The position numbers were made by a program, and so were the translations under genes. From NCBI GenBank assembly GCA_913054235.1, contig CAJXJI010000003.1, positions 1 to 40,971 of the forward strand: a DNA stretch of 40,971 bases, in the 5' to 3' direction. Each line of letters opens with the position of its first letter. Positions within the stretch are counted from its first letter, which is position 1. The notes beneath the pieces are model-generated. The model saw only the letters and a program-made list of their open reading frames with translations, did no database searches and was not told the origin of the DNA. Below, piece after piece: positions 1,456-29,553 of this stretch. The DNA is from an uncultured bacterium. Its GTDB lineage: Bacteria; Patescibacteriota; Minisyncoccia; Minisyncoccales; UBA10102.

Positions 1456-2475
1456 TTAAAATAAATCCTTTTGGGGGAGGGTAATATCGAGATGTTTGTA
1501 TGCTCTCGGTGTAGCAACCCTCCCGCGCGGAGTACGCTCTAAAAATCCAAGTTGCAACAAGTAGGGTTCATATACATCTAAAATGGTCTCCTGCTCTTCT
1601 GCAGCCATGGCAGCTAAGGCTTGAATACCAACTGGCCCTCCGGAAAATTTCTGGATGATAATGCGCAAAATCTTTCTGTCATCAGGCTCAAGGCCAAGTT
1701 CATCAATCTCAAGAAAGCCAAATGCTTCTGCTGCATGCTTCTCATTAACAAGACCAATCTCATTAATGGTTGCAATGTCTCGAACTCTTTTAAGTATCCT
1801 ATTTGCAACTCGAGGCGTAAAGCGTGAGCGCGAAGCAATAGCTGCTATTGCTTCTTTTGTAAGCTGCAACTGAAGAATGGAGGAAGAGCGCTCTACAATT
1901 TTCTCAATGTCTCTTTGTTCATAGAAGTTTAACTGAAAAATGGCTCCAAAGCGATTTCGAAACGGCGCAGGAAGTTGCGCCATTTTGGTAGTAGCGCCAA
2001 TTAACGTAAAGCGAGGCAAGGAAAGATCCATTGTTCTTGCCATGGGCCCCTTTCCTAAAACCAAATGGAGCTTGTAGTCTTCCATGGCAGAGTAAAGGGT
2101 TTCAAGAATTCCTCTTGGCAGGCGATGACATTCGTCAATAAAGAGTATTTCTCCATCTTCAAGATTGGTAAGAAGTGAAGCAACATCTCCTGAGCGCTCC
2201 AAAGACGTGCCAGAACAAAAAGTCATCTTAGCTCCCATCTCTTTTGCTACTACTTGAGCAAGCGAGGTTTTTCCAAGACCAGAGTTGCCATAAAATAGCA
2301 AGTGTTCTAAGACATCATTACGTTTTTTTGCTGCCTCAATAATTATACTCAAAGATTTTTTAAGCTTTTCTTGCCCTATATACTCTTGCCAGGTTTGAGG
2401 CCTCAGTGCAGTGTAGAGAGGTTCTTGGGTTTCATTTTGTTCCATATTTTTTACGCTGTGGTCTTTTGGAATCAT
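1456..2475 (-). CDS. ruvB: Holliday junction ATP-dependent DNA helicase RuvB (start may be the internal ATG at 2445)
   Basis: LRPQTWQEYIGQEKLKKSL, GNSGLGKTSLAQ Walker A, LFIDECHRL Walker B, LIGATTK. Confidence 0.95.
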   Translation of the reverse strand: MIPKDHSVKNMEQNETQEPLYTALRPQTWQEYIGQEKLKKSLSIIIEAAKKRNDVLEHLLFYGNSGLGKTSLAQVVAKEMGAKMTFCSGTSLERSGDVASLLTNLEDGEILFIDECHRLPRGILETLYSAMEDYKLHLVLGKGPMARTMDLSLPRFTLIGATTKMAQLPAPFRNRFGAIFQLNFYEQRDIEKIVERSSSILQLQLTKEAIAAIASRSRFTPRVANRILKRVRDIATINEIGLVNEKHAAEAFGFLEIDELGLEPDDRKILRIIIQKFSGGPVGIQALAAMAAEEQETILDVYEPYLLQLGFLERTPRGRVATPRAYKHLDITLPQKDLF

Positions 2476-28166: not shown

Positions 28167-28676
28167 TTACTTTTTCGTTATCACCATGGTTAATCCCCGA
28201 GGCTCCAGTTTCATATCGCGTTCTGTTCGAATGGGAATTAAGATAGTGAGTTGTTCTGTAAACTTTAAAATCTTTTCTCTTGCATGATCAAGCAATGCTT
28301 TCTGTCGTCCTCTGAGCCGAAGATTGATTCTGATATTGTCCCCACGCTTTAAAAACTTTTCCGCTTGCTTCACTCTTGTTTCAAGGTCGTGGTCTGAAAT
28401 ATTGAAGCTGAGGCGAATTTCTTTTAAATCTCCCCCTGTATGCTTTTTTGCCTCCCTCTCTTTCTTTCCTTGCGAATAGAGATACTTTCCGTAGTCTGCA
28501 ATTCTTGTTACGGGAGGATCTACTTTTTCAGTTACTTGAATGAGATCAAGACCAGCTGCTTCTGCTCGAGCGAGAGCCTCAGCTAAAGGAACTACGCCTG
28601 CTTGAGTTCCTGTTTCGTCAATTAAACGAACTTCAGTTGCTCGTATTTGTTTGTTTGTGTATATTTGTTTTGCCAA
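28167..28676 (-). CDS. infC: Translation initiation factor IF-3 (apparent TTG start)
   Basis: TNKQIRATEVRLIDETGTQAGVVPLAEALARAEAAGLDLIQV; IADYGKYLYSQGKKEREAKK; canonical operon. Confidence 0.95.
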   Translation of the reverse strand: MAKQIYTNKQIRATEVRLIDETGTQAGVVPLAEALARAEAAGLDLIQVTEKVDPPVTRIADYGKYLYSQGKKEREAKKHTGGDLKEIRLSFNISDHDLETRVKQAEKFLKRGDNIRINLRLRGRQKALLDHAREKILKFTEQLTILIPIRTERDMKLEPRGLTMVITKK

Positions 28677-28702: not shown

Positions 28703-29051
28703 TGGAGGTGGAGGGAATGACCCCTCGTCTAGAAGATATCCTATTAATACTTCTTCAGGCATAGCCTCATTCATGCAAGAAGAAGAGTTAAAATGGGGCG
28801 AAATCTCTTTTCTTTTTGATTCTGTTTATGTTGCAGAGTTTCCGAATCCGAAACAATGCCCTTCTCGATAATTGACACCCAGTTCTGCCTATCGAGATCA
28901 GCAGGAGGATGGCTATAGGTTTATGCTACAGCAAGAGCCCTTTGAGGGGCAAAGATGTTGGCATTTATGGTGCCCCAGGTTTTTTTGTGAGTATCCTGGA
29001 ACCTCAGCCTGCATATTAATGTTCTTTCCTCTATCGAAGCAATTCACCCCC
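28703..29051 (-). ncRNA. ssrA: tmRNA (transfer-messenger RNA), tag peptide ANIFAPQRALAVA
   Basis: Minus strand: 5' GGGGGTGAATTGCTTCGATAGAGG, 3' GAGGGGTCATTCCCTCCACCTCCA; acceptor GGGGGUG/CACCUCC pairs 7/7 with one G-U; CCAGG/CCTGG PK1 stem; ATAAAT then GCC AAC ATC TTT GCC CCT CAA AGG GCT CTT GCT GTA GCA TAA. Confidence 0.93.
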
Positions 29052-29490
29052 GTTTTAGGGCCCGTTCCATTTCTTGCTGGGCCTCTCTTTTGCGCAGGAG
29101 CTGCCGCTTATCTCCTTTTCTCTTTCCTCTGGCAATGCCAAAGGCAAGCTTAATCTTGGCCTTGCTAGTATACACCTTCAAGGGCACAAAAGTCAATCCT
29201 TCCTGCTTTATCCTTCCATATAGCGAATGGAGCTCCACTTTTTGCAAGAGAAGCTTTCTTGCACGGTCAGGATCATAGTTTAAAGGAGCATTTTTCGGTT
29301 GGTAAGGAGGAATAGTAGCTCCCAGCAAAAAAAGCTCTTTGCCCCTGAAGCTCACAAAGGATCCAGCTAGTTGAATCTTTCCCTGGCGAATTGCTTTTAC
29401 CTCTTGCCCTGTGAGCACCAAACCCGCCTCAATAGTCTCAAGGATTTGATAATCATGGTGTGCTTTTCTGTTTTCAGCTAAAGTTGGCAT
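29044..29490 (-). CDS. smpB: SsrA-binding protein SmpB
   Basis: LAENRKAHHDYQILETIEAGLVLTGQEVKAIRQGKIQLAGSFVSF; C-terminal KRKGDKRQLLRKREAQQEMERALKRG. Confidence 0.96.
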   Translation of the reverse strand: MPTLAENRKAHHDYQILETIEAGLVLTGQEVKAIRQGKIQLAGSFVSFRGKELFLLGATIPPYQPKNAPLNYDPDRARKLLLQKVELHSLYGRIKQEGLTFVPLKVYTSKAKIKLAFGIARGKRKGDKRQLLRKREAQQEMERALKRG

Positions 29491-29553
29491 ATATGCTATT
29501 CTTTAAAGCATAGATTCATTGTAGAGGAAAATATGCTACATTAAAAATAGATT

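Follow-up and report, generated by a model that had tools for sequence, protein, structure and literature searches.

Overlap of smpB with the 5′ end of ssrA, and a probable ssrA promoter within smpB, in Paceibacteria

The DNA analysed here, called the window, is a stretch of 40,971 nucleotides (nt) from an uncultured bacterium (contig CAJXJI010000003.1, assembly GCA_913054235.1). On its minus strand the gene for SmpB is followed by ssrA, the gene for transfer-messenger RNA (tmRNA), and the two genes overlap by 8 nt. As a preliminary description of this DNA had proposed, the smpB stop codon is embedded in the 5′ acceptor strand of the tmRNA: smpB ends at 29044, and the 5′ end of the tmRNA according to Rfam is exactly G29051. 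We read this as an overlapping gene pair in which ssrA would be transcribed mainly from a promoter inside smpB, a smpB message lacking its stop codon (a non-stop message) would arise as a by-product, and the overlap itself would have originated by genome compaction. We give this reading a probability of about 70%. The idea that such an arrangement could regulate smpB by feedback has already been published for Carsonella. What is new here is the spread of the arrangement across Paceibacteria, the use of a conserved UGA together with an SmpB tail of normal length, and the probable intragenic ssrA promoter.

Results

Structure of the overlapping locus

The following features define the locus.

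29044..29490, minus strand: smpB coding sequence (CDS), an open reading frame (ORF) of 148 amino acids (aa); Pfam PF01668, E 1.8e-50
28703..29051, minus strand (Rfam match on to 28700): ssrA (tmRNA); Rfam RF00023, 90.7 bits
29044..29051, minus strand: 8-nt smpB/ssrA overlap GGGGGTGA; sequence and Rfam
29045..29051, minus strand: 5′ strand of the tmRNA acceptor stem, GGGGGUG; sequence and Rfam
28704..28710, minus strand: 3′ strand of the tmRNA acceptor stem, CACCUCC; sequence and Rfam
28921..28962, minus strand: tag reading frame ANIFAPQRALAVA-stop; sequence, within the Rfam-aligned tag region

The Pfam SmpB match spans residues 5-146 of 148, and the smpB frame is therefore real up to its last codons; the protein also has the C-terminal tail, similar in length to that of non-overlapping relatives. 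The tmRNA covariance model is matched over its full length (1-374; cut-off 47 bits, E 4e-34), and this is the sole tmRNA above threshold in the 478-kb assembly. The two acceptor strands pair with each other, as the preliminary description had also stated, and the tRNA-Ala-like acceptor stem includes the G3.U70 alanine identity pair (G29049 with U28706). The tag frame has an Ala resume codon and a hydrophobic end. Ala-tmRNA adds its uncoded Ala before the tag ANIFAPQRALAVA. No CCA is encoded after the discriminator A28703.

On the smpB side, the ORF list and the sequence give the 3′ end ...AAA CGG GGG TGA, that is ...RALKRG and stop. The shared GGGGGTGA is the tmRNA 5′ acceptor strand plus nucleotide 8, and the TGA (29046-29044) is tmRNA nt 6-8. 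The smpB coding sequence thus enters ssrA on the same strand, as in the arrangement of Carsonella. RNase P is expected to cut within the Arg codon CGG of smpB, after C29052 and before G29051; the preliminary description had placed the cut in this codon.

ARAGORN found no tmRNA in the window, which we do not take as absence, the Rfam match being clear. The miss is probably due to the T loop, which has 6 nt (GUCAUU; T arm 28704-28727, minus strand) rather than the usual, though not defining, 7 nt. Such 6-nt T loops are present in 31 of 54 tmRNAs in the order, in 5 of 77 other genomes of the class and in none of 28 from the rest of the phylum.

Recurrence among relatives

The closest named relative is Candidatus Wildermuthbacteria (79% SmpB identity), and other near matches are from Nealsonbacteria and Parcubacteria; to judge by these relatives, the window genome belongs to the class Paceibacteria of the Patescibacteria. 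No relative was found among the viral contigs searched with the window SmpB. In 312 loci, 273 after removal of duplicates, we located the stop of smpB and the 5′ end of the tmRNA. The tmRNA 5′ ends were set jointly by acceptor pairing, the T stem and the D-region motif, except in three loci set by eye.

The overlap, whose conservation the preliminary description had left to be checked, recurs and goes beyond chance. It is present in about 40% of the order genomes with a tmRNA after smpB (23/56; 14/34 families) and in 15/77 such genomes elsewhere in the class (9/46 families), and is absent from all 28 adjacent smpB-tmRNA pairs in the rest of the phylum. A later draw of previously unused order genomes gave 16 overlaps in 45, 14 of them at exactly -8, i.e. 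sharing 8 nt as in the window. Among the 192 unique class loci with adjacent smpB and tmRNA, 54 overlap, 37 of these at exactly -8 and the remainder at -1, -10, -11, -12, -17, -18, -21, -23 or -30. Within the genus of the window genome, four of five species have the overlap. A tree of SmpB alone would need at least 40 changes for the 54 overlaps; it was considered too noisy for counting origins, and families were counted instead. In one class genome (G272, C18:4323-4749) the smpB match contains several in-frame stops (2 TGA, 1 TAG, 2 TAA), possibly reflecting a pseudogene or an assembly fault.

A promoter-like sequence inside smpB

The region has two promoter-like sites, the first of which came from a scan and was missed by the preliminary description.

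29167..29196, minus strand: predicted intragenic ssrA promoter TTGACT-N18-TATACT; scan, conserved across the class
29518..29546, minus strand: likely weaker smpB promoter TTTTAA-N17-TACAAT; a -10-like box is found in most relatives shown

The intragenic site is near-consensus and lies about 110 nt upstream of the tmRNA, with the -35 box TTGACT at 29196-29191, an 18-nt spacer and the -10 box TATACT at 29172-29167. It occupies the equivalent position in the genus and in the other family members examined. Its hexamers are near TTGACA and TATAAT, with a spacing in the 16-19 nt range of sigma-70-type promoters, and it is conserved beyond coding need. Transcription of ssrA would be expected to start near 29160, giving a leader of about 109 nt to be removed by RNase P.

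Conservation of the site follows the presence of a downstream tmRNA. The rule TTGA..-N16-19-TA...T with a score of at least 9/12 is satisfied by 206 of 220 smpB genes with a tmRNA downstream versus 5 of 53 without, or 2 of 48 after dropping contigs too short to show a tmRNA; counted by family, the figures are 92/102 and 3/28. Given this tie to the downstream tmRNA (206/220 versus 2/48), ssrA very probably has its own promoter within smpB. In the later order set 43/45 genomes pass the rule, three of them at an unusual place, which leaves 40/45 at the usual place. Many loci lacking the intragenic site carry a promoter-like site in the smpB-ssrA spacer instead. The E. coli smpB gene was also examined and has no such intragenic site.

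Since the segment lies in the conserved SmpB motif G-L-T-x-x-P-L-x-x-Y-T, its conservation could in principle reflect constraint on the protein or its codons rather than a promoter, an explanation we regard as very improbable. The exact codons (Leu TTG, Tyr TAT and a following NNT) are kept almost only where a tmRNA lies downstream; elsewhere the codon for Leu changes, as does even the amino acid itself. At the -35 box, 188 of the 192 class loci with a downstream tmRNA use TTG for Leu, compared with only 5 of 40 non-class smpB genes lacking one; among the remaining Leu codons of these class genes TTG makes up about 22%. Moreover, shuffling synonymous codons in 102 class loci with a tmRNA close by lowers the top promoter score of the final 220 nt of smpB from 10.3-10.4 to 8.5-8.6.

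The second site lies between argS and smpB (TTTTAA at 29546-29541, 17 nt, TACAAT at 29523-29518). The -10-like box recurs at a similar place upstream of smpB in most relatives shown, and the site is likely a weaker promoter for smpB, the intragenic site being closer to consensus. In B. subtilis, smpB and ssrA form one operon with further promoters. We found no description of an ssrA promoter inside smpB in a literature search that mostly did not extend to subscription papers, and in the literature searched we found no paper on Patescibacteria with both tmRNA and SmpB.

Codons shared with the acceptor strand

All -8 loci encode an SmpB ending in Arg-Gly (33) or Trp-Gly (4), a consequence of GGGGN at tmRNA nt 1-5. 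The third base of the final Gly codon changes in step with the 3′ acceptor strand of the tmRNA (GGGGGTG/CACCTCC in 21 loci, GGGGATG/CATCTCC in 15). SmpB tails are equally long in -8 and gap loci, with a median of 19 residues. tmRNA nt 1-5 cannot hold a stop, which makes -8 the earliest position open to one, and of 134 class tmRNAs without an overlap, 54 already carry TGA at nt 6-8. Compaction would thus be expected to produce the exact -8 peak, which alone is no sign of selection. Likewise, 43 of 53 overlaps are in the -8 frame, a preference explained by constraint on the protein tail as well as by selection for feedback.

Stop codons inside tRNA genes

The genome of the window has other genes that end inside structured RNA genes. 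In 2 of the 30 tRNA genes examined, the stop UAG of the upstream gene falls at tRNA nt 8-10. First, ftsH (L096:1565-3052, minus strand) ends with a TAG at nt 8-10 of the downstream tRNA-Ile (1499-1574, minus strand), whose maturation would also yield a non-stop ftsH message. Second, a DUF192 gene (L107:1562-1990, minus strand) ends with a TAG at nt 8-10 of tRNA-Ala (1500-1571, minus strand). A survey of 115,660 tRNA and tmRNA genes listed 250 upstream CDS overlaps (Hudson et al. 2014, Table 4, PMC4131195); the proportion of 2/30 is well above that rate (binomial p 0.002), although the number of cases is small. At two other loci (L174 and L189), tRNA-Ile is overlapped by an ORF of some 640 aa whose ending differs. 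Where a class-locus tRNA has a same-strand ORF close upstream, the two overlap in 3 of 23 cases, with no clear difference from the smpB-tmRNA pairs (Fisher p 0.09). Together with the equal SmpB tail length, the embedded stops of ftsH and the DUF192 gene favour compaction as the origin of the smpB-ssrA overlap.

Downstream genes

28167..28676, minus strand: infC (IF3), then rpmI and rplT; ORF, Pfam

The infC gene, with a TTG start, begins 26 nt 3′ of ssrA and is followed by rpmI and rplT. No terminator-like site was seen between ssrA and infC in a scan of the minus strand, and tmRNA 3′ maturation may therefore also define where the infC message begins.

Discussion

The observations above suggest the following course of events. 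The conserved U6-G7-A8 of the tmRNA would double as the smpB stop codon, with the acceptor strand encoding the final two SmpB residues, Arg-Gly. Most ssrA transcription would probably start inside the coding sequence of smpB, at the near-consensus promoter of sigma-70 type, while a second, weaker transcript from upstream of smpB would carry smpB and continue into ssrA. RNase P would cut both transcripts at the tmRNA 5′ end. In the smpB-ssrA transcript, a cut at 29052/29051 would leave a smpB message ending in ...AAA C, with the last two codons and the stop lost. Ribosomes that are done before the 3′ acceptor strand is made, about 340 nt later, could terminate normally. SmpB would thus come chiefly from ribosomes finishing before the cut, and later ribosomes would stall and have their product tagged by tmRNA-SmpB itself. 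Tagged SmpB would end in ...RALK plus AANIFAPQRALAVA rather than in ...RALKRG. The overlap would most likely have arisen by genome compaction using a ready-made stop, the non-stop message being a side effect.

Several observations are consistent with the non-stop message that the preliminary description had predicted from tmRNA maturation. Both the RNA and the protein of RNase P are encoded in the genome, as are RF2, which reads UGA, and ClpP. Because the smpB stop lies inside ssrA, every smpB message that bears a stop must enter ssrA, and the scan saw no terminator-like site between smpB and ssrA on the minus strand. With smpB transcripts running into ssrA and RNase P present, smpB messages without a stop are likely to arise as a by-product, as has also been reasoned for Carsonella. 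This part of the prediction is likely to be right, with the qualification that ssrA very probably has its own promoter, which would make the tmRNA supply independent of the smpB transcript.

It could be argued that compaction has had no consequence at all, the tmRNA coming from the intragenic promoter only and the smpB messages ending or decaying without being cut as tmRNA precursors. That promoter does match the consensus better than the one upstream of smpB does, and CDS-tRNA overlaps occur elsewhere in the window's genome too. Nevertheless, we hold this to be rather unlikely, as the stop inside ssrA forces stop-containing smpB messages into ssrA, where an RNase P is available and no terminator-like site intervenes.

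The opposite alternative is that the overlap was kept by selection, since cutting of the transcript self-limits SmpB synthesis and ties SmpB to the tmRNA supply. It would fit the recurrence in many families, the clustering of 37 of the 54 unique overlaps at one exact position, and the precedent of arfA, a known gene regulated through a non-stop message (PMC10107115). Against it, -8 is the first stop position within the tmRNA and adds only Arg-Gly or Trp-Gly, so that neutrality predicts it too; spacer and overlap states occur side by side in the same genus and the same family; overlaps of a CDS with a tRNA are common in the class loci too (3/23), not clearly less so than those of smpB with the tmRNA (Fisher p 0.09); and ssrA appears to have its own promoter. 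We therefore consider selected autoregulation a doubtful explanation of the overlap.

The self-limiting loop that the preliminary description had drawn from the overlap is accordingly supported in part. The overlap, its recurrence, RNase P, RF2 and ClpP speak for it, while the separate ssrA promoter and the fact that compaction explains the overlap as well speak against it. On the sequence evidence, feedback regulation of smpB is plausible. In its boldest form, smpB would be negatively autoregulated by its own trans-translation across much of Paceibacteria, RNase P removing the stop while the conserved intragenic promoter sets the tmRNA supply independently, i.e. a two-promoter homeostatic circuit. 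We put this forward tentatively, and think it improbable.

Returning to an overlap born of compaction, with ssrA served by an intragenic promoter and a non-stop smpB message as by-product, several points weigh against it. The intragenic promoter is a consensus match, though a conserved one, and the evidence for it is comparative. The smpB genes without an adjacent tmRNA sit mostly in other clades, and a tree-based test pairing promoter with tmRNA adjacency is underpowered (7 independent pairs, about 4 in the expected direction, 0 opposite). The fifth species of the genus (G004) has a 91-nt spacer in place of the overlap, which is therefore dispensable. Finally, fast decay of the cut smpB message would mean little tagging.

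The arrangement has implications beyond this locus. The arrangement behind the non-stop smpB idea was described in a single degenerate symbiont; here it is seen across many families of a large class of bacteria, with SmpB tails of normal length, and relatives that have the overlap can be compared with those lacking it to test the feedback idea. One stretch of DNA encodes part of SmpB and probably also acts as the promoter of SmpB's partner RNA; its codons are hardly ever kept unless a tmRNA lies downstream. The conserved 5′ bases of tRNA-like molecules (UGA at tmRNA nt 6-8, UAG at tRNA nt 8-10) may serve as ready-made stops in compact genomes.

Comparison with known systems

The nearest parallel is Carsonella ruddii, in which smpB runs into ssrA (Mao et al. 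2009; Hudson, Lau and Williams 2014, PMC4131195). A feedback through the non-stop smpB message was proposed there, and its authors found the arrangement nowhere else (Hudson et al. 2014, PMC4131195). The two cases share the entry of smpB into ssrA, so that tmRNA maturation should yield a non-stop smpB message, and the feedback idea put forward is the same. Unlike in Carsonella, the SmpB tail here matches that of non-overlapping relatives in length, the conserved UGA at tmRNA nt 6-8 usually supplies the stop, and the overlap is found in many families of Paceibacteria.

As proposed for the present smpB, E. coli arfA encodes a rescue factor from a stop-less message, limited by trans-translation (PMC10107115). 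ArfA is a backup factor and its message is cut by RNase III, whereas in the present case SmpB itself would be the target, with RNase P cutting at the step that makes the tmRNA. Stop codons of coding sequences inside tRNA genes (Hudson et al. 2014, Table 4) offer a broader parallel, in that RNA maturation would strip the upstream gene of its stop. At smpB-ssrA, in contrast, the RNA that is made is the one that would rescue the resulting stalled ribosome.
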